A DNA stretch of 64,000 nt from NCBI RefSeq assembly GCF_001426685.1, contig NZ_LMFB01000041.1, positions 35,537-99,536 of the forward strand, read 5' to 3'. The position numbers and the translations under genes were made by a program. The stretch is from Rhizobium sp. Root483D2. GTDB taxonomy: Bacteria > Pseudomonadota > Alphaproteobacteria > Rhizobiales > Rhizobiaceae. This document shows, in pieces, positions 3,840 to 57,208 of this stretch (positions within the stretch are counted from its first letter, which is position 1; each line of letters starts with the position of its first letter). The notes under the pieces are model-generated. The model was not told the DNA's origin. It worked only from the letters and a program-made list of their open reading frames with translations, and ran no database searches.

Positions 3840-4586
3840 TCACTCGTCTGGGTCCGCTCGGTTCGGTAGGTTATAGCCAGATGTATGGATGCTTCCTGAC
3901 GTATTTTCCCAATATGAGCGCACAGCTTCAGCGGAGTGGTAGAATTTCTCTGGTTGAAACGGTGAGCTTTCAATAGCATTTTTTAATCTTAAGTCGGAGA
4001 TACGTTCTTCTATTTGAACGCAAAGCGCGGCGTCTTTTTCTTCGATGATTTTGGTGATTGTTTCTAAGCTTCTGGAAATCACCTCAGTCAGATCGGCGAC
4101 AATATCTAAGTTGTAAATGGACCGTATCGAGCAGAAAGCGAGGCCTTCATGATCATCGGTAACAATATACGTCGGTCTTTCTTTGACCCAATCACGACCC
4201 GAAAAGAAGATCGGATCTCCAAAGTGAGCGATCACTTTGTCCCGAAGGTCAACGACCCGTGCATGGCAGGCTTTGTGACGCGACGTAAAATCTTTTGTAG
4301 CGCCGACGTTAGATCTGCGGCTTTGTTTTGAATGGCATGAACGAGTGTACATAAGTACGGCATGTGTGACCAAGGCCTCTCCATAGGCTTTTCTCATTTC
4401 CGCAAATTCATGTATGTTCTTCAATGTAGTTATTGAGTTACTTGCAGACCTTAAATCATTTCTTGTCGAGCAGCAGCTATCATACTGCCGTATTAGCCGA
4501 CAAAAATCCGCGAAATCAGTTACTTTTTCCAGTTTTTCTCTAACTAGTCTAAAATCTATAGCGTATTTTTTCACGGATGCGTCCAT
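3840..4586 (-). CDS. Unknown prophage cargo protein with HEPN-like RxxxxxH motif
   Basis: A 248-residue, mostly helical, Cys-containing soluble protein without signal peptide. The DNA is visibly AT-richer than both the lysis genes and the host genes, which suggests recent acquisition. A central segment (RHKACHARVVDLRDKVIAHF) carries LRDKVIAH, matching the Rx4-6H pattern of HEPN ribonuclease-type domains in toxins and anti-phage systems. That is motif-level similarity only. It is minus strand, opposite the lysis genes, in the usual place for cargo genes expressed from the lysogen. The ATG has no convincing ribosome site: a terminator-like hairpin and T-run end two bases upstream. Confidence 0.6.
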   Translation of the reverse strand: MDASVKKYAIDFRLVREKLEKVTDFADFCRLIRQYDSCCSTRNDLRSASNSITTLKNIHEFAEMRKAYGEALVTHAVLMYTRSCHSKQSRRSNVGATKDFTSRHKACHARVVDLRDKVIAHFGDPIFFSGRDWVKERPTYIVTDDHEGLAFCSIRSIYNLDIVADLTEVISRSLETITKIIEEKDAALCVQIEERISDLRLKNAIESSPFQPEKFYHSAEAVRSYWENTSGSIHTSGYNLPNRADPDE

Positions 4587-6447: not shown

Positions 6448-7527
6448 CTACTCCTTACAGGGCGGTCTCCGTGCCCAATTCACGTATTTGTCTATGTCAC
6501 GGGATTTCAGGTGAGCGTAACGTTTCAAGGAATTCCATGAGCGGTGTCCTGACACGGTCGCAACATGCGGTATGGACCATCCCAACTCGAAGAGGCGTGA
6601 TATCCCTTCATGGCGCAGGTCATGAAAATGAAGATCGTCGATATCCAGAAGGCTGCAGGCCCTGGTGAACGAGGTGCTGACTGATTTAGCTTCGTAGGGA
6701 AAGATGCGATCATCGTTCTGATGAGGAACAGCCTTTAGAACTGCCAAGGCCTCGGGTACTAGGTCGCACCAGACATGGTTACCGATCTTCTCACCCGGAT
6801 TTTTCATGTCGCGCACCAGGACCCGTCCATGTTCGACATCGAGATCAGACCAAGTTATCCGGCAAACCTCGTCCTGGCGCCGCGTCGAAAACAGAGCAAA
6901 CAATATGATTGATGACATCGGCGCCATGGTTGGTACGCGGATCTGTCGATCTTCATAGTGAGCAAGTATCTTGTCCAGCTCCTCAATCGTTGGCCGCCGG
7001 TCACGCTCTTTTGACCTGCCTGCTGTTCCTAAGCGCTTCAGCACTTTTTGCGCGTCGAGCATGGCGGTATAGTTTAGTTCAATACCCCAGGCGGGCTTGG
7101 CAATAGCGAAGATGGTTGAGAGGTGTGACAGATAATTTCCAACCGTTTGCGGCTGCCGCCCGTCGCCTAATTCCTGCGCGAACTCAACGATATCGGCACT
7201 TCCGATATCTCGGCATTTCATAGAGGCGATTTGAAAATCTTTAATGGATTTGAGCACCTGTGCCTTCGTCTTGCCGTATGACTTCTGGCTCTCGCTAACG
7301 TAACGATCGATGGCATCCGCCAAGGTAATATTAGGGTTCTTGCCGGTCGAAAGCGCGCCAGGCGCACTCAGTTCGTTTTCGCGCTTTTTCAGCCAGGCGT
7401 TGGCCGCCGGACGGCGCTCGAAGGTTTGCGCCTCCGAGTGAGCGATTTTGCCGTCTCGCTTTATCCTGATTTGCGCAGTATAAGATTTCGACCCATTCGC
7501 TCGTTTTCTCTCGGTTATCGTACCCAT
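6448..7527 (-). CDS. int: Tyrosine integrase, dusA-associated type
   Basis: Catalyses excision and integration of the prophage. A 359-residue protein starting MGTITERKR; a longer frame exists upstream, but this start gives the usual length. The N-terminal part is an arm-type binding region plus SAM-like helices. The catalytic domain shows the expected set: Arg in STRRQDEVCRITW, Lys in DMKNPGEK, His/Arg in HFHDLRHEG, GH in TVSGHRSWN and nucleophile Tyr in LKRYAHL. All six are present, so it looks active. It is the last prophage gene and points away from dusA, the usual arrangement for integrases targeting dusA. Confidence 0.92.
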   Translation of the reverse strand: MGTITERKRANGSKSYTAQIRIKRDGKIAHSEAQTFERRPAANAWLKKRENELSAPGALSTGKNPNITLADAIDRYVSESQKSYGKTKAQVLKSIKDFQIASMKCRDIGSADIVEFAQELGDGRQPQTVGNYLSHLSTIFAIAKPAWGIELNYTAMLDAQKVLKRLGTAGRSKERDRRPTIEELDKILAHYEDRQIRVPTMAPMSSIILFALFSTRRQDEVCRITWSDLDVEHGRVLVRDMKNPGEKIGNHVWCDLVPEALAVLKAVPHQNDDRIFPYEAKSVSTSFTRACSLLDIDDLHFHDLRHEGISRLFELGWSIPHVATVSGHRSWNSLKRYAHLKSRDIDKYVNWARRPPCKE

Positions 7528-7700: not shown

Positions 7701-8732
7701 ATCGACTGGACCGACCGGCACTACCGGTTTCTTGCCCGCCAGCTGTCCAAACATGCCTTGCTCTATACCGAGATGATCGTTTCCGAGGCCATCCTGCGGG
7801 GGGACCGGGAGAGGCTGTTGGGTTTCGATGCGGTGGAGCATCCGGTGGCCTTGCAACTGGGCGGCAATGATCCCGGCAAGATGGCGCGCGCCGCGCGGAT
7901 CGGCGAAGAGTTCGGCTATGCCGAGATCAATATCAATGTCGGCTGTCCCTCCGACCGGGTGCAGTCGGGCACGTTTGGTGCCTGCCTGATGCGCGAGCCT
8001 GCGGTTGTGGCGGAATGCGTGGCGGCCATGAAGGCTGCTGTGTCTATTCCCGTCACGGTCAAGTGCCGGATCGGGGTGGACGATCAGGATCCGGAGCTTG
8101 CGCTGCGCGATCTCGTATCGCGGGTGACGCAGGCTGGCGCCGATGCGGTCTGGGTGCATGCCCGCAAAGCCTGGCTACAGGGACTGTCGCCCAAGGAAAA
8201 CCGCGATATCCCGCCGCTGGATTACGATCTCGTTCACCGGCTGAAGGCGGAAAATCCCAGTCTTTTCATTGGTATCAATGGCGGTCTTGGCAGTTTGAAT
8301 CAAGCGTTCGAAGAGTTGAACAAGGGGGCTGCTCTCGACGGCGTCATGCTGGGGCGGGCGCCCTATCATGACAGTGCCATGCTGACGGCGGTGGATGGTG
8401 TGTTTCCGCATCCGGTCTCGGGGGCTGCGCCCTTGGATGTCAGCAGTGAGACTTTTACCGCCAACGGACACCGGCAGTCGCTGGCATTCTGGGGCGGGGT
8501 GCGGGATGCGATGATGGGCTATGCGGCCCGGCATATCGCCTCCGGCGGGCGGCTGATCCATGTGACCCGTCATATGGTCGGCCTCTTCCAGGGCTGGCCG
8601 GGCGCCCGGCGCTTCCGTCAGATCCTGTCGGCGGATGCGACGCGGGCAGGCGCCGGGCCGGAGGTGATTGCCGCAGCGTTTGAGGCGGTGTTTGTTGCGG
8701 CAGAGGCGAAGGAATTGGTGAGTAGTGAGTAG
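7620..8732 (+). CDS. dusA: tRNA-dihydrouridine synthase A
   Basis: Flavoenzyme that reduces uridines in the D-loop of tRNA. TIM-barrel signatures are clear: APMIDWTDRHYRFLARQL, HPVALQLGGNDP, and the catalytic loop NINVGCPSDRVQSGTFGACL with the active-site cysteine; FMN/tRNA residues lie in VKCRIGVDD and VHARKAWLQGLSPKENR. There is no ATG before the conserved core: options are TTG 7527, GTG 7620 and TTG 7629. I chose GTG 7620 because it gives a short leader; the native start was probably lost on prophage insertion. The last residues (VSSE) are encoded by the first units of a 7-bp repeat array, so the C-terminus has been rewritten by the repeat. Confidence 0.9.
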   Translation: MNELKTYSENQGQTGYFKHPVFAVAPMIDWTDRHYRFLARQLSKHALLYTEMIVSEAILRGDRERLLGFDAVEHPVALQLGGNDPGKMARAARIGEEFGYAEININVGCPSDRVQSGTFGACLMREPAVVAECVAAMKAAVSIPVTVKCRIGVDDQDPELALRDLVSRVTQAGADAVWVHARKAWLQGLSPKENRDIPPLDYDLVHRLKAENPSLFIGINGGLGSLNQAFEELNKGAALDGVMLGRAPYHDSAMLTAVDGVFPHPVSGAAPLDVSSETFTANGHRQSLAFWGGVRDAMMGYAARHIASGGRLIHVTRHMVGLFQGWPGARRFRQILSADATRAGAGPEVIAAAFEAVFVAAEAKELVSSE

Positions 8733-8896
8733 TTTTTAGCGAATAGTGAGTAGCGAATAGCGAATAGAAGAGATTGCACTATTCACTATTCACTATTCAC
8801 TATTCGCTATTCGCTATTCGCTATTCGCTATTCGCTATTCACTACCCACTACCCACTACCCACTACCCACTAAAACCTACCCACTAAAACCTACCC
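8718..8896. repeat. 7-bp tandem array, inverted arms, at the dusA/cspA convergent junction
   Basis: The left arm (~8718-8767) carries units such as GAATAGT, GAGTAGC and GAATAGC. The right arm from 8778 is in perfect register: ACTATTC x4, GCTATTC x5, ACTACCC x4, then a 14-bp unit (ACTAAAACCTACCC) x2. The left units are reverse complements of the first right units, so the array can fold into a long hairpin. The array starts inside the dusA stop region and ends 6 bp before the cspA terminator. A second array of the same kind lies at 34003-34121. Confidence 0.9.
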
Positions 8897-8902
8897 ACCA
8901 AC

Positions 8903-8933
8903 AAAAAAACGGCGCCCCAGAAGGACGCCGTTT
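8903..8933 (-). terminator. Rho-independent terminator of cspA
   Basis: On the minus strand, AAACGGCGTCC pairs with GGGCGCCGTTT (one mismatch, 5-base loop), followed by an unbroken T-run. It lies about 30 bp after the cspA stop. Confidence 0.85.
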
Positions 8934-8965: not shown

Positions 8966-9178
8966 TTAGTCGGCCTGGATGTTGACGGCCTTCGGGCCTT
9001 TGCCCATGCGATCCGGCTCGGTGTCGAAGGTGACCTGCTGGCCGTCCTTCAGGGTCTGGAGGCCAGCGGCCTGCAGCGCGGAGATGTGAACGAACACGTC
9101 CTTAGCGCCGCCTTCCGGCGTGATGAAACCAAAACCCTTGTCCTGGTTGAAGAATTTTACGGTGCCCTTGGTGGCCAT
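8966..9178 (-). CDS. cspA: Cold-shock protein, CspA family
   Basis: A 70-residue single-stranded nucleic acid-binding protein acting as an RNA chaperone. It is a complete cold-shock domain: [19 protein letters not shown] contains the start and RNP1 (KGFGFI), followed by RNP2 (DVFVHI) and the conserved end GPKAVNI. Length is typical. It has an AAGGA ribosome site, a long structured leader and a strong terminator, so it is monocistronic. Rhizobia carry several paralogs, so which csp this is cannot be told. Confidence 0.95.
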
Positions 9179-11224: not shown

Positions 11225-11640
11225 GCCCCCTCATCCGCCCTTCGGGCACCTTCTCCCCGCTGGGGAGAAGAGGGAGCGTGGGGCCAGCGGCGGGGCTTCC
11301 ACGCTGGGGAGAAGAGGGAGCGTAGGGATAGCGACGGCCTTCCCCGCTGGAGAGAAGGTAAGGCAGGGGGCTCGCGGCGGGCTCCCCCTTCTCCCCAGCG
11401 GGGAGAAGGGCCGAGCGAAGCGAGGCGATGAGGGGGCGGTTCGGCGTAGAGGGAGTTTGAGGCGGTGGCCTTCGGCCCCGTCATCCGGCACTTTGCATCA
11501 TTTCTCCCCGCTGGGGGAAAGCGAGATTCGCTTGAGCTTGGGCGGGATCATACCCCTCACCAAGTTCGCCTTGCCAATCGGCTTTGCCTCTTGGGGCGAA
11601 CTATCCTCTCCCGCAAGGGGAGAGGAAAGGCCCCGGACTC
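11225..11640. repeat. Cluster of rhizobial-type palindromic repeats
   Basis: At least four related blocks in the 572-bp gap upstream of the DUF3828-like gene. Near 11225 and 11478 are blocks of CTCATCCG...CTTCTCCCCGCTGGGGAGAAG type. Around 11380-11410 is an inverted CTTCTCCCC/GGGGAGAAG copy. At 11553-11636 is a CCCCTCACC...CTCTCCCGCAAGGGGAGAG element. The first type resembles the intergenic mosaic elements (RIME) of Rhizobium; the last is the same family as the copy inside uvrB. No gene is seen here. Confidence 0.75.
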
Positions 11641-33246: not shown

Positions 33247-34004
33247 ACCTCGAAGCGGTCAAGTCGATCTATTTCTTCGAGATGGCGCGTACGCGCCGCA
33301 CGCTGTTGCAAAGCGTCGTTTCGCCGGTCATCTCGACCTCGCTCTATTTCATCGTCTTTGGCGCGGCCGTCGGATCGCGCATCCAGGAAATCGACGGCGT
33401 CTCCTACGGCGCCTTCATCACACCCGGCCTGATCATGCTGACCTTGCTGACGCAGTGCATCGGCAACGGCTCCTTCGGCATCTATTTCCCGAAATTCACG
33501 GGCACGATCTATGAGCTGCTGTCGTCGCCGGTCTCGATGACGGAGATCGTGCTTGGCTATGTCGGGGCGGCGGCGACCAAGGGCATGATGATCGGCCTCA
33601 TCATCCTCGGAACGGCCTCGCTGTTCGTCGATCTGTCGATCGCCCATCCGCTCGTGATGCTGCTGTTCTTCGTGCTGACGGCCGTGACCTTCAGCCTGTT
33701 CGGCTTCATCATCGGCATCTGGGCCAAGGATTTCGAGCAGCTGAACCTCATCCCGATGCTGGTCATCCCGCCGCTGGTCTTCCTGGGCGGCAGTTTCTAT
33801 TCGGTCAACATGCTGCCGCCGTTCTGGCAGGCGGTCAGCCATTTCAATCCGGTGCTCTATCTCATCAGCGGCTTCCGCTGGAGCTTCTTCGAGATCGCCG
33901 ACGTCAACCCGGTGGTCAGCTTTGCGATCATCATCGTGTTTCTGGCGGTGCTGATGGGGCTGCTGACGTGGATCTTCAAGACAGGATACCGGCTGCGAAA
34001 CTGA
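33243..34004 (+). CDS. ABC-2 type exporter permease (YadH-like)
   Basis: Membrane partner of the upstream ATPase, 253 residues with about six membrane helices: [20 protein letters not shown] at the N-terminus, then a large second helix pair ([16 protein letters not shown]), [20 protein letters not shown] (coupling helix region) and the ABC-2 hallmark helix [19 protein letters not shown]. It overlaps the ATPase gene by 4 bp, so translation is coupled. A heptamer array starts at its stop codon. Confidence 0.9.
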
Positions 34005-34121
34005 GTAGAGAATAGTGAATAGGGAATAGTGAATAGTGAATAGTGAATAGTGAATAGTGAATAGGACTACCCACTACTCACTACTCACTACTCACTACTC
34101 ACTACTCACTATCCGCTCACT
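34003..34121. repeat. 7-bp tandem array, inverted arms, at an exporter/glycosyltransferase convergent junction
   Basis: Seventeen consecutive 7-bp units without a gap. Left arm: GAGTAGA, GAATAGT, GAATAGG, GAATAGT x5, GAATAGG. Right arm from 34066: ACTACCC, ACTACTC x5, ACTATCC, GCTCACT. Left units are nearly complementary to right units (one mismatch each), giving a long imperfect hairpin. The array begins in the permease stop codon and ends over the glycosyltransferase stop on the other strand, so it exactly fills the junction. Same unit family as 8718-8896. Confidence 0.92.
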
Positions 34122-35256
34122 GCACCACTTCTTCCAGTTCACAGGCCTTCGTGTCGATCGTCATGGCGTTACCGCGCCAGACGAAGGCGCCGCTGCCCCA
34201 GCTCCGGATCCAGACCAGCGGTAGCATGATGTCGCGAACGAGGATGGCGGGCAGGGAGAGGAGCGATACGCGCCAGCCCTTGGCCAGGCCAAGGGCCAGT
34301 TCCGGCAAGTAGATCGCAGCGGCGACGGCTAAGGCGACGGCAAAGATATTGACGCCTGCGAGATGAGCTGCGGCGATTGCAAGGAGGAGGGGCGGCAGCG
34401 CGCCGAGCAGAATTTCCGGTGCGAAGAACTGCGGAAAGGTGACGCGGCGCAGGCGTGCCCATCGTGCCTGGCGCGACCATATGTCATGGCGGGTGCGGCT
34501 GCCGAGCGGCTGGTCGAAGGGGGAGGATACAAGATGGACCTTCAACCCGAGACGATTGACCAGCTTGGTTGCGGCGGCATCCTCGGCAATCTCGGCGGCG
34601 AGCGCTTCAATGCCGTTATTTGAGTCAAGGAGAGGTTTGAACCACAACATGCTCTTTCCCTGTGCAAATCCGAGCCCGATCGCTTCGCCGGTATATTGCC
34701 AGCGGGCCTGATGCGTGTTCAGGAACATGCATTCGACCTCGGCCCAGAAACCGTCCGGCCGTGATCCGATCGGCGTCGAGCACACCACACCTGTGTTCTT
34801 GCGCCAACCCGCCATCAGGTGAGCCACGTAGTCCTTCGGCATAAGCACGTTGGAATCGGCAAGGATCACCCAGTCGTGCCGGGCGGCTTTCCAGCCTTTC
34901 ACGCAGTTGTTGAGTTTTGGATTGGCACTGATCCGGTCGTCGCCGGTCAGGATGCGCGTGGGAATACCGGGATTGGCGGCCATCGCCCGGCGTATCTCGC
35001 CGATGACAGGATCGCGCGGATTGGCGACGCAAAAGATCAGCTCGTAATCGGGCCAATCAAGCGAAAAGGCGCGCGCGAGCGTTTCGGGCGTGAATGCTTC
35101 TATGCCGCGGGCGGGCACGACGATCGAGACCGGCGGCCGCTTCTGGACTGGCGGAGCCGGCTCCCCGCTTGGCGCCATTCGCCAGCCGGCGATGATGATG
35201 CTGACGACATTGACCAGGATGAGGATTGCGGCCGCAGCGGCCAATGCGATGATCAT
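34117..35256 (-). CDS. Membrane glycosyltransferase, GT2/GT21 (ceramide-glucosyltransferase-like)
   Basis: Transfers sugar from a nucleotide donor to a membrane lipid, probably at the cytoplasmic face. A 379-residue protein: N-terminal TM (IIALAAAAAILILVNVVSII), catalytic domain with VSIVVPARG, the DxD-like SNV motif (ADSNVLMPK), conserved EIAEDAA (third Asp), and (R/Q)xxRW as RQARW; then C-terminal TMs (LLGALPPLLLAIAAAHLAG and the last helices). This set and topology fit the ceramide-glucosyltransferase family rather than chain-forming GT2 enzymes. AAGGGG seven bases upstream supports the start at 35256 over the longer frame. Acceptor could be ceramide or diacylglycerol; not decided. Confidence 0.8.
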   Translation of the reverse strand: MIIALAAAAAILILVNVVSIIIAGWRMAPSGEPAPPVQKRPPVSIVVPARGIEAFTPETLARAFSLDWPDYELIFCVANPRDPVIGEIRRAMAANPGIPTRILTGDDRISANPKLNNCVKGWKAARHDWVILADSNVLMPKDYVAHLMAGWRKNTGVVCSTPIGSRPDGFWAEVECMFLNTHQARWQYTGEAIGLGFAQGKSMLWFKPLLDSNNGIEALAAEIAEDAAATKLVNRLGLKVHLVSSPFDQPLGSRTRHDIWSRQARWARLRRVTFPQFFAPEILLGALPPLLLAIAAAHLAGVNIFAVALAVAAAIYLPELALGLAKGWRVSLLSLPAILVRDIMLPLVWIRSWGSGAFVWRGNAMTIDTKACELEEVVQ

Positions 35257-35390
35257 ACACAGTCCCCTTGCTCGCACAGCTGCTTCTTGACGAATCCGCA
35301 GCAGCTGAGCTGTCCAGCAACATCATTGTCATATGACGCGCGGATGACAGGCGGTGCTTTAAAGAGGCGCGCCGCTGGGAACGAAGCGAG

Positions 35391-35843
35391 CCCCTCACCA
35401 GCAAAATCTAACACTTAGCTAAGGCTAAGATGTTGATTTTGCGTCCTCTCCCACGAGGGGAGAGGGAGGGCGGACTTGTCTCCCCCTTTGCGGGGGAGAA
35501 AGCAATTTCAGCATCTTAGCTTTAGCTAAGTGCTAGAAATTGCAAGAGAGGGGGTAGGACTGGGAAATGAAGTGAGCCCTTCACCAGCAAAATCTAACAC
35601 TTAGCTGAAGCTAAGATGTTGATTTTACGTCCTCTCCCGCAAGGGGAGAGGGAGGGCGGACTTGTCTCCCCCTTTGCGGGGGAGAAAGCAATTTCAGCAG
35701 CTTAGCTTTAGCTAAGTGCTAGAAATTGCAAGAGAGGGGTAGGGCTGGGAAACGAAGCGAGCCCCTCACCAGCAAAATCTAACACTTAGCTGAAGCTAAG
35801 ATGTTGATTTTGCGTCCTCTCCCGCGAGGTGAGAGGGAGGGCC
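35391..35843. repeat. Tandem ~185-bp multi-palindrome array
   Basis: Unit starts at 35391, 35577 and 35762 give periods of 186 and 185 bp, with two full units and a partial third. Each full unit has: a palindrome around AACACTTAGCT...AAGCTAAGATGTT flanked by CAAAATC/GATTTTG; CCTCTCCC/GGGGAGAGG arms; an inverted TCTCCCCC/GGGGGAGA pair; and GCAATTTC...GAAATTGC arms. It lies upstream of the glycosyltransferase and downstream of the retropepsin gene, filling most of the ~590-bp gap. Single copies of related modules occur at 10454 and 11553. Confidence 0.9.
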
Positions 35844-54982: not shown

Positions 54983-57208
54983 ATGAGCATCCGATCCAAA
55001 CTTTTCGCCACCGTGGCGTTTCCCATGCTGTCGATTTCGGTCGCCATCCAGCCGGCTTTGGCCGACAGTCTGATGAAGCCGTTCGAAGTCGCGCAGGAAG
55101 ATGGCGCAGCGCAAGCCGATGGCGGCGAACAGGCACCGGAAGACGTGATCAAGAAGCGCCGCCCGCGCGCCGAACAGTCCGGAGAACAGCCGGCGGAAAA
55201 CCAGGAGCAGGAGCCGAGCCGCGCCGAGCGCCGCAAGCAGCGCGCCGAACAGCAGCAGGAGCAGGCTCAGCCCGAACAGGAAGCCCAGCCGGCGCAGGAA
55301 GAACAGCCAAGCCGCGCTGAGCGCCGCAAGCAGCGGGCTGAACAGCAGCAGCAGGAGGAACAGGCCCAGCCGTCCGGCGACGATGGCGCCGCAGCGGCTG
55401 CCGAAGAAAAGGCCAAGGCGCGTGCCGAGCGCAAGAAGCAGCAGGCCGAACAGCAGCAGGAGCAGCCCTCCGGTGATGACGGCGCTGCAGCGGCTGCCGA
55501 GGAAAAGGCCAAGACCCGTGCCGAGCGCCGCAAGCAGAAGGCTGAGCAGCAACAGCAGGAGCAGCAATCCGAACAGGCGCAGCCCTCCGGTGACGATGGG
55601 GCGGCAACGGCTGCCGAAGAGAAGGCCAAGGCCCGTGCTGAACGCAAAAAACAGCAGGCCGAGCAGCAGCAGGAAGAACAGGCCCAGCCGTCTGATGATG
55701 ACAACAGCAAGGCTTCCCGGCAGGAAAAAGCCAGGGATCGTGCCGAGCGCAAGAAGAAGTTGGAGGAAGAGCAGCGGACTGCTCCCTCGCGCGACGACGC
55801 GGAACTACAGAAAGCCGCCGAGGAGAAAGCGCGTATCCGCGCTGAAAGAAAGGCGCGCGAACAGGCCGAGCAGCAGGAGGAAGGTCAGCAGGATGGCCAG
55901 GAGCCGGCAGCCGAGGGCGCTTTGCGTCCGGCCATCGACGGTGATGCGGAGCCCGCCAAGCGTCCCGATCGCCGCAAGCCGATCCCGGAGGTTGTCGATA
56001 CCCGCAGCCAGGAGGAAAAGCAGGAGATCGCCAGCGACCCATCCAAGAGCGACGAAACCGTCGTGCTTCCGGTCGATAATGGCGCAGCCGTTCTCGACAG
56101 CGACAAGGATGCCGACAATGCCGACGGCAATGCGCGCGAAAATCGCCGCAAGCAGCGTGAGCGTGCCCGTGCAGAGGACGATAATGTCGAAGTTCCGAAG
56201 AGCGATGCCGAAGCGCAGTCGCGGCGCAACGACCGCCGTCCGACCCGCGAGGAACTCGGCGCCAATCTGAAGGAGGAAGGCCGCCGTGTCGACCGGGAGC
56301 CGGAATTCGGCGTCAACGACCTGATCGATGCCTTTACCGGCAATGGCGGACGGCGTCCGCGCATCGATGAGAGCCGCGACAACCGCACAGTTATCGATTT
56401 CGGCGACCAGATCATCGTTCGCAGCGACGACCGCCCGCGTCTGCGCCGCAACGCGCAGGAAACCTACTATGAAGAATTGTCGCGCGGCCGGTCCCGCGAG
56501 ACGATCGAGCGGCCGAACGGCGTGCGCATCGTGACGATCTACAATCGCTACGGCGATATCATGCAGCGCTCGCGGATTGACCAGGACGGCCGCGAATATC
56601 TGATGATCTATGCGCCGGAAGCCGATGAGGGTCCGCGCCCGCCGGCCTATGACGTGGGTGAGGATCTGCCGCCGATGCGCCTGCGCGTGCCGGTTCGCGA
56701 TTACATCATCGATACGTCGAGCGAGCCAGACCGCGATTACTACGACTTCCTCGCCGAACCTCCGGTGGAGCAGGTCGAGCGTACCTATACGATCGACGAG
56801 GTGAAGAACTCTGCCCGTATCCGCGACAAGGTGCGCCGTATCGATCTTGATACCATCACCTTTGCGACCGGCAGCGCCGAAGTTCCGTTGTCGCAGGCGA
56901 AAACCCTGCGCAAGGTGGCCGATGCGATGCTGGAAGTGATCGAGAAGGATCCGGGCGAAACCTTCTTCATCGAAGGCCATACGGATGCCGTCGGTGGCGA
57001 CGAGCCGAACCTGGTGCTCTCGGACGAGCGCGCCGAATCGGTCGCTTCGCTGCTGAGCGAAGTCTATGACATTCCGGCCGAAAACCTGGTCACACAGGGC
57101 TATGGCGAGCGTTTCCTCAAGGTGCGCACGCAAGGGCCAGAGCAGGAGAACCGTCGCGTGACAATCCGCCGCGTGACGCCGCTGGTCCGTCCGGTGGCCC
57201 AGAAATAG
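54983..57208 (+). CDS. OmpA-family envelope protein with Lys/Arg/Gln-rich repeats
   Basis: A 741-residue protein: signal peptide LFATVAFPMLSISVAIQPAL, then a highly charged repeat region (~60-330) with six to seven imperfect copies built on RAERRKQRAEQQQ and PSGDDGAAAAAEEKAKARAE, likely helical and elongated. A second low-complexity part follows, then ~430-600 ordered segments (DFGDQIIVRSDDRPRLRRNA). The C-terminal OmpA domain starts at ~620: DTITFATGSAEVPLSQAKTL, FIEGHTDAVGGDEPNLVLSD, LVTQGYGERFLKVRTQ, which bind peptidoglycan. GAAGGAGG upstream. Role: outer-envelope/peptidoglycan linker; the repeats may span the periplasm. Confidence 0.87.
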   Translation: MSIRSKLFATVAFPMLSISVAIQPALADSLMKPFEVAQEDGAAQADGGEQAPEDVIKKRRPRAEQSGEQPAENQEQEPSRAERRKQRAEQQQEQAQPEQEAQPAQEEQPSRAERRKQRAEQQQQEEQAQPSGDDGAAAAAEEKAKARAERKKQQAEQQQEQPSGDDGAAAAAEEKAKTRAERRKQKAEQQQQEQQSEQAQPSGDDGAATAAEEKAKARAERKKQQAEQQQEEQAQPSDDDNSKASRQEKARDRAERKKKLEEEQRTAPSRDDAELQKAAEEKARIRAERKAREQAEQQEEGQQDGQEPAAEGALRPAIDGDAEPAKRPDRRKPIPEVVDTRSQEEKQEIASDPSKSDETVVLPVDNGAAVLDSDKDADNADGNARENRRKQRERARAEDDNVEVPKSDAEAQSRRNDRRPTREELGANLKEEGRRVDREPEFGVNDLIDAFTGNGGRRPRIDESRDNRTVIDFGDQIIVRSDDRPRLRRNAQETYYEELSRGRSRETIERPNGVRIVTIYNRYGDIMQRSRIDQDGREYLMIYAPEADEGPRPPAYDVGEDLPPMRLRVPVRDYIIDTSSEPDRDYYDFLAEPPVEQVERTYTIDEVKNSARIRDKVRRIDLDTITFATGSAEVPLSQAKTLRKVADAMLEVIEKDPGETFFIEGHTDAVGGDEPNLVLSDERAESVASLLSEVYDIPAENLVTQGYGERFLKVRTQGPEQENRRVTIRRVTPLVRPVAQK

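Follow-up and report, generated by a model that had tools for sequence, protein, structure and literature searches.

Inward-facing heptamer arm pairs behind genes of Rhizobium: sense, arm matching and turnover of the unit word

Two arrays of tandem heptamers, each laid out as a pair of inverted arms between convergent genes, lie in a 64,000-nucleotide stretch of the genome of Rhizobium sp. Root483D2 (contig NZ_LMFB01000041.1; the window hereafter). Across 26 genomes of the genus they belong to a class of elements that we define by the unit RTAGNNN, whose RTAG core is in part imposed by the search patterns used. The class is real and of a known kind; what is new are its rules on the sense of the arms, on the matching of the arms to each other and on the turnover of the unit word. 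We interpret each array as a heptamer microsatellite in two inverted arms (a 'heptamer palindrome'), driven by slippage and tolerated at the 3' ends of genes, and we put the probability of this interpretation at roughly one half.

Results

Two inverted heptamer arrays in the window

Array 2 spans positions 34005-34112 of the window, and consists of nine GAATAGT-type heptamers followed by seven GAGTAGT-type heptamers in reverse (Table 1), the tandem units being exactly 7 bases long. Its forward arm starts directly after the TGA stop of the permease gene (34002-34004), and its reverse arm begins 4 bases past the TGA stop of the glycosyltransferase gene (34117-34119). The earlier note on this DNA had described the array as filling its convergent junction from stop to stop, and this was borne out, since the two arms make up 106 of the 112 bases that separate the TGA codons. 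The window contains 13 copies of the word GAATAGT where 2.1 would be expected, a count reached in none of 100 shuffles. Exact runs of at least three units with periods of 4-12 numbered five of period 7, all inside arrays 1 and 2, and three of 4-mers in the window.

Table 1. Positions in the window of the two arrays and of features beside them
Feature	Position	Strand	Description
ABC-2 type transporter permease gene, PF01061	33243..34004	+	convergent neighbour of array 2
Forward arm, array 2	34005..34064	+	9 RTAG-core units at 7-base phase, mostly GAATAGT; TRF and sequence
Middle of the array 2 inverted repeat	34065..34066	.	2 bases under the strict RTAG definition
Reverse arm, array 2	34067..34112	-	7 heptamers, mostly GAGTAGT (minus strand); TRF and sequence
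Glycosyltransferase gene, PF13506	34117..35277	-	convergent neighbour of array 2
Array 1	8718..8898 (approximate)	.	same class as array 2; TRF and sequence
Intrinsic terminator of the cold-shock gene (csp) beside array 1	8903..8930	-	hairpin and seven T, canonical by eye

Array 1, 25 kb away, has the unit family and the inverted geometry of array 2, as had been claimed. The further claim that it too ends on both stops held on the left side, where the forward arm takes in the stop codon of the left-hand gene (TAG, 8730-8732); at L206, an orthologous junction, this gene encodes a dihydrouridine synthase. On the right side it did not hold, as about 67 bases, the terminator included, separate the array from the csp stop (8966-8968).

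A search of the whole genome confined the exact run GAATAGTGAATAGTGAATAG to these two arrays, and the pattern RRTAGYG gained a third locus. With RTAGNNN and four or more units, at least six loci were found, on contigs C11, C16, C31, C41 (twice) and C44; two of the six are convergent (arrays 1 and 2 only), three lie between same-direction genes and one lies in an rRNA operon. The same pattern read backward, used as a control for composition, gave no match in this genome.

The window also holds repeats of other sorts. Positions 35375-35842, lying between the start of the glycosyltransferase gene and the stop of an aspartyl protease gene, carry 2.5 copies of a 186-bp unit with 93% matches; palindromic blocks can be seen in it by eye, and its type is distinct from the heptamers. 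A 44-bp tandem unit (2.4 copies, with the palindrome CCCCGCTGGGG) lies at 11254-11357, and repeats of 96 and 117 bp, both multiples of 3, lie at 55359-55672, perhaps in the coding region of a repetitive protein.

Occurrence in the genus and beyond

Runs of at least four RTAGNNN units were present in 19 of the 26 genus genomes and absent from the other 7, and pattern matches summed to 334 over the 26 genomes, compared to 10 for the backward-read control. Among 121 genomes sampled from the order, 13 contained five-unit runs; the backward control gave 14 matches in four genomes of this sample, so that, beyond the family, part of the matches may come from repeats that have nothing to do with the class. 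In a collection of genomes from 84,980 species, at least 119 stretches carried five RRTAGYG units, distributed over 17 phyla (NCBI names). Among those listed is a stretch of Rhizobium sp. Root1212 whose array and near flanks match, by eye, those of genome G017 of our set, and this assigns the window to Rhizobium in a broad sense.

For the analysis of architecture we used 73 genus elements with an arm of at least four units, from 69 loci in 17 genomes, among the matches listed. The sample from other bacteria was picked by pattern and comprised 130 elements at 114 of the 119 listed loci, the five of <3000 bases being left out. Gene neighbours were called with our own codon-usage caller, and these calls are cruder in the other bacteria.

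The arms face inward

All 37 two-armed genus elements among the matches listed (arms of at least three units on both strands) had their arms pointing inward, as did all 60 when arms of two units were allowed. The other bacteria gave 38 two-armed elements among the 130, again with every one of the 38 inward among the matches listed. One-armed elements follow a related rule: the RTAG strand had its 5' end on the side near the gene in 31 of 36 elements of the genus and in 66 of 75 from other bacteria (listed matches), with a median distance to the gene of 9-10 bases on the RTAG 5' side and 69-83 on the other side. Reading out of the gene, the RTAG arm thus mostly comes first. Some one-armed arrays adjoin a gene start instead (9 of 36 in the genus and 28 of 75 elsewhere, among the listed matches).

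The stop codon is TAG at 30 of 68 arms, compared to 84 TAG stops among 555 gene stops overall, and at 16 of the 68 the array reaches into the end of the gene and itself provides the stop. Seeding of arms by stop codons is therefore not separable from overlap, and we rejected the idea that arms are seeded only in this way, both for this reason and because some one-armed arrays abut gene starts.

Gene context of the arrays

Orthologous loci were collapsed into 23 junction families, and the two rRNA families (J12 and J21) were left out of the junction test. Nine of the remaining 21 families were convergent, 10 were same-direction and two were called divergent, although one of these two, atpD-atpC, is really same-direction. 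Convergent junctions were enriched, at 9/21 families against 27/265 other gaps of 60-500 bp (odds ratio 6.6, Fisher p = 2.9e-4), and also when the baseline was restricted to one locus per family (7/84; odds ratio 8.3, p = 4.7e-4). A Pfam match on the called strand supports 17 of the 18 genes that flank the nine convergent families. Enrichment was weaker in the other bacteria (28/111 against 38/264, p = 0.017, for listed matches with cruder gene calls).

The preference for convergent junctions, on which the first reading had staked its case, thus survived the test. That reading had proposed a specific class of 3' element at such junctions, and the elements do recur, are tied to gene 3' ends and are enriched where genes converge; a restriction to convergent junctions was not supported, as 10 of the 21 families are same-direction and others lie in rRNA operons. 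We accordingly rejected a strictly convergent class. The rRNA-operon elements lie between 23S and 5S (L279, 4038-4139), and locus L280 has two, at 4011-4035 and 7056-7157, one just before 23S and one between 23S and 5S. An element at L282 (73-171) is alike in sequence, and the copies in rRNA operons are near-identical to one another. Among the same-direction sites are a gene pair for an acyltransferase and a short-chain reductase, fabD-fabG by its appearance, and the gap from atpD to atpC, where one species carries an element (L268, 3977-4061).

Divergent calls were made at 3 of 69 array junctions, compared to 63 of 265 junctions without arrays; counted by families the deficit was not significant (2/21 against 63/265, p = 0.18). 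Three genus elements and 13 from other bacteria were first called divergent, seven of them two-armed and nine one-armed. At L268, L091, L150 and L115, Pfam matches put the true neighbour on the other strand, making these same-direction pairs, while the opposite-strand reading frame at L139, L172 and L271 looks real by eye alone and the one-armed J23 (L294) retains its divergent call. No verified divergent two-armed element was found among the fetched loci of the genus and of other bacteria. As divergent calls often proved same-direction, the divergent counts set an upper bound, and the baseline may be affected by this error as well.

We also observed that at locus L208 and its orthologues (families J2 and J9) two recurrent heptamer elements (L208 3938-4100 and 8520-8638) lie in a cluster that includes a phage prohead protease gene (PF04586) and resembles a gene transfer agent or a prophage.

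Predicted RNA folds and terminator-like sites

The minus transcript of array 2 was predicted to form one long stem containing G-U pairs (-74.3 kcal/mol, z -12.4), with a 7-base loop at the middle of the array; the plus transcript, which has A-C mismatches, gave -50.2 kcal/mol (z -6.5) and a 9-base loop. A transcript leaving either gene runs past the stop into the RTAG arm and then into the complementary arm, so that in such models a long hairpin can form from both sides.

The earlier note had suggested that the arrays terminate transcription, and on this point the evidence went the other way. The stem of array 2 is not followed by the U-tract (T-run) of an intrinsic terminator, and a terminator scan of positions 33900-34250 returned a single terminator-like site, inside the permease gene and none at the array. 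At convergent junctions such sites were as common with arrays (6/34) as without (7/40), for which reason we also rejected arrays as substitutes for terminators. Rfam 15 gave no match above the gathering score in the window.

Turnover of copy number and unit word

The permease gene next to array 2 was found in all 26 genus genomes at 93-100% identity (one match partial), and its 3' junction could be compared throughout. An RTAG arm of at least two units was present in twelve genomes and, by eye, a degenerate form of the array in two more (G015 and G004). In G017 the element is missing (by eye), and the stop of the permease lies two bases from that of its convergent neighbour; the remaining eleven genomes have a different sequence downstream of the permease (by eye) and no element. 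The words at this junction vary by species, and include GAATAGT, GCGAATA, GGCAGTA and GCCAATA. At the permease junction of G004 (L249) we noted a six-base CCCACT repeat in place of heptamers.

Twelve of the 21 non-rRNA families were present in at least two genomes. Two genomes of the window's species, G000 and G041, are 93.0-97.7% identical in their aligned stretches and differ in copy number at array 1, at array 2 and at the C44 locus, and in the commonest word at the C31 and C16 loci; the copy at the rRNA locus hardly differs. To compare words more widely we paired elements, leaving aside pairs that joined the two genomes of one species. The commonest word was the same in 61 of 174 pairs (35%) from different junctions of one genome, in 31 of 153 pairs (20%) from one junction in different genomes, and in 296 of 2251 (13%) of all other pairs. 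Permutation of words inside junctions gave p = 0.001 for the agreement within genomes; for junctions with at least two members the agreement was 0.29 in the whole set, against a permutation mean of 0.15, and ranged from 0.20 to 0.34 when single genomes were left out, the minimum being reached without G023.

The two arms of an element also resemble each other. Differences between arms amounted to 1.18 per unit within elements, compared to 1.40 when right arms were shuffled within genomes (p = 6e-4) and to 1.86 between genomes at other junctions. The match is imperfect, with 87-89% of unit positions pairable on average.

A 25-base middle, together with neighbouring units, is common to L248 (G018) and L292 (G012) near position 3974, at different junctions of two species, and was absent from all other fetched loci. 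This points to copying from one locus to another, whether through conversion or through mobility.

Discussion

The most economical reading of these observations, and in our judgement the best, is slippage combined with hairpin-templated correction or conversion behind stop codons, with a selected RNA stem as the main rival. The copy-number differences between G000 and G041 would be most simply produced by slippage in 7-base steps, and the resemblance of complementary arms most simply kept up by correction on a hairpin template or by gene conversion. The sites are common to several species, whereas their unit word turns over fast and tends to be the same across a genome, a statistical pattern whose mechanism we infer. 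The position and sense of the arms probably reflect what selection will tolerate: behind a stop, an RTAG arm would put a stop codon in every reading frame, and the arm ahead of the next gene would bring neither a stop nor a start nor a ribosome site. By itself, slippage accounts neither for the strict sense rule over many phyla nor for the word shared within genomes, and an architecture that persists at a junction through changes of its word might just as well reflect selection for the hairpin.

Such selection is the substance of the main rival, in which the array is an RNA element whose stem, in 3' UTRs and between cistrons, would stop exonucleases or antisense reads or be a target of RNase III cleavage. 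Selection on the stem would retain the inverted architecture while the word drifts, and the inward rule, arms that match each other beyond the genome background, sites between 23S and 5S, just before 23S, in atpD-atpC and in the fabD-fabG-like pair, and retention behind the permease in 12 to 14 of the 26 genomes with differing words are all consistent with it. We nevertheless think this explanation less likely than slippage with tolerance: the convergent pair of G017, its stops two bases apart, shows no element by eye, seven of the 26 genomes lack a run of four units, and the arms pair imperfectly. If the arrays have a function at all, it is probably a mild one in RNA, as a 3' or intercistronic stem, rather than termination. 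A bidirectional terminator for convergent genes would account for the convergent enrichment and for the hairpin predicted on both strands; array 2 has no U-tract, terminator-like sites are no rarer beside arrays than elsewhere, and array 1 lies beyond the terminator of csp. With elements lying also in same-direction gaps and in the gap from 23S to 5S, this is unlikely as a general role, and of all the explanations considered it is the one we credit least.

Two further explanations look to something that acts across loci. A trans-acting, sequence-specific agent, be it a binding protein for the RTAG core or a repeat-writing or repeat-converting enzyme, might spread the word and homogenise it genome-wide. 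The word follows the genome more than the locus, the commonest word differs at two loci within one species, and a middle is common to two junctions, as such an agent would have it; the same pattern could, however, follow from gene conversion of the ordinary kind or from drift out of a small number of ancestors, the word agreement drops from 0.29 to 0.20 without G023, and no candidate gene was found, the IS200/RAYT-type domain Y1_Tnp occurring in 2 of the 26 genomes and not in this one. We regard such an agent as unlikely. Quite unlikely, too, is its boldest form, that fixed sites behind genes are rewritten genome-wide with the lineage's current word, in constant sense, by an undescribed trans-acting process such as templated repeat addition or specialised conversion. 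A palindromic mobile element of the REP/BIME or MITE sort with heptamer ends would show the fixed inward polarity that terminal inverted repeats give, and could have carried the 25-base middle and neighbouring units to the two junctions in G018 and G012; the RTAG core moreover recalls the GTAG tag of REPs, elements that also often supply a TAG stop (PMC3733652). The ends of the elements are inverted, and one interior is common to two junctions, while others mostly are not, among the matches listed. In the all-against-all comparison, though, most matches joined orthologous flanks (among the matches listed), 12 of the 21 sites are common to several species, and the search for Y1_Tnp revealed no link to a transposase. 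REP elements are linked with RAYT transposases; the RAYT domain (Y1_Tnp, PF01797) gave no match in this genome and was found in only 2 of the 26, while the same search was positive in 5 of 14 control genomes, and we therefore rejected a RAYT/REP origin. Mobility of this sort seems to us improbable.

The arrays have clear relatives. The cyanobacterial STRR repeats (Calothrix) are tandem heptamers with words different from those here. Three cyanobacterial heptanucleotides are mentioned in PMC4692102, which also describes GGGAATC arrays of Xanthomonas as having inverted pairs in convergent orientation and no known function. Their architecture is the same as that of the Rhizobium arrays, and such convergently oriented inverted pairs were found here as well. 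In Xanthomonas (GGGAATC) and Nostoc (GGGGA(C/T)T) the units are of the G-quadruplex kind and occupy 186 and 183 sites in a genome, whereas the unit here is RTAGNNN at few loci; in that paper 16% of repeats lie between convergent ORFs (PMC4692102, available part). The GAATAGT unit, unlike theirs, has no G-run: the GAATAGT and GAGTAGT units contain no run of three G, so that a G-quadruplex is not indicated for them, and a three-G run is present in the GGGTAGT part of array 1.

A survey of 7006 prokaryote genomes ranked tandem heptamers first in abundance among intergenic tandem repeats (PMC6344855). The (GATAGRA)n satellites of Chloroflexus share the period of 7 and, as GATAGRA contains ATAG, fit RTAGNNN (PMC6749651, as far as its accessible text goes). 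Inverted geometry, a sense rule and word turnover are not described for either set of heptamers in the accessible parts of these two papers (PMC6344855, PMC6749651). The TAACTGA repeats of Beggiatoaceae, Cyanobacteria and Bacteroidetes are likewise intergenic heptamer arrays over scattered phyla with no known function; they lack RTAG, and in a Beggiatoaceae genome are mostly direct repeats just upstream of starts, with one indirect (PMC4679880, in the portion available). GTAG-tagged REP/BIME elements resemble the arrays in lying mostly in same-direction or convergent gaps near gene ends and in being often oppositely paired (PMC3733652). The REP unit is a palindrome of 20-40 bp in that source, and the unit of array 2 is a non-palindromic tandem 7-mer, which sets it apart from REP/BIME. 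A literature search that included motif strings, with subscription journals mostly outside it, found no paper on the RTAGNNN word class in rhizobia; the motif strings led to two papers, unrelated to judge by their titles.

Inward sense, anchoring at stops, matching of arms, a word shared within genomes and differences of word within a species together turn these arrays into testable questions on slippage, conversion and RNA hairpins. If genome-wide rewriting were true, the same class, as judged by the sense rule, would span many phyla. In this genus the loci are few enough per genome for all of them to be deleted.
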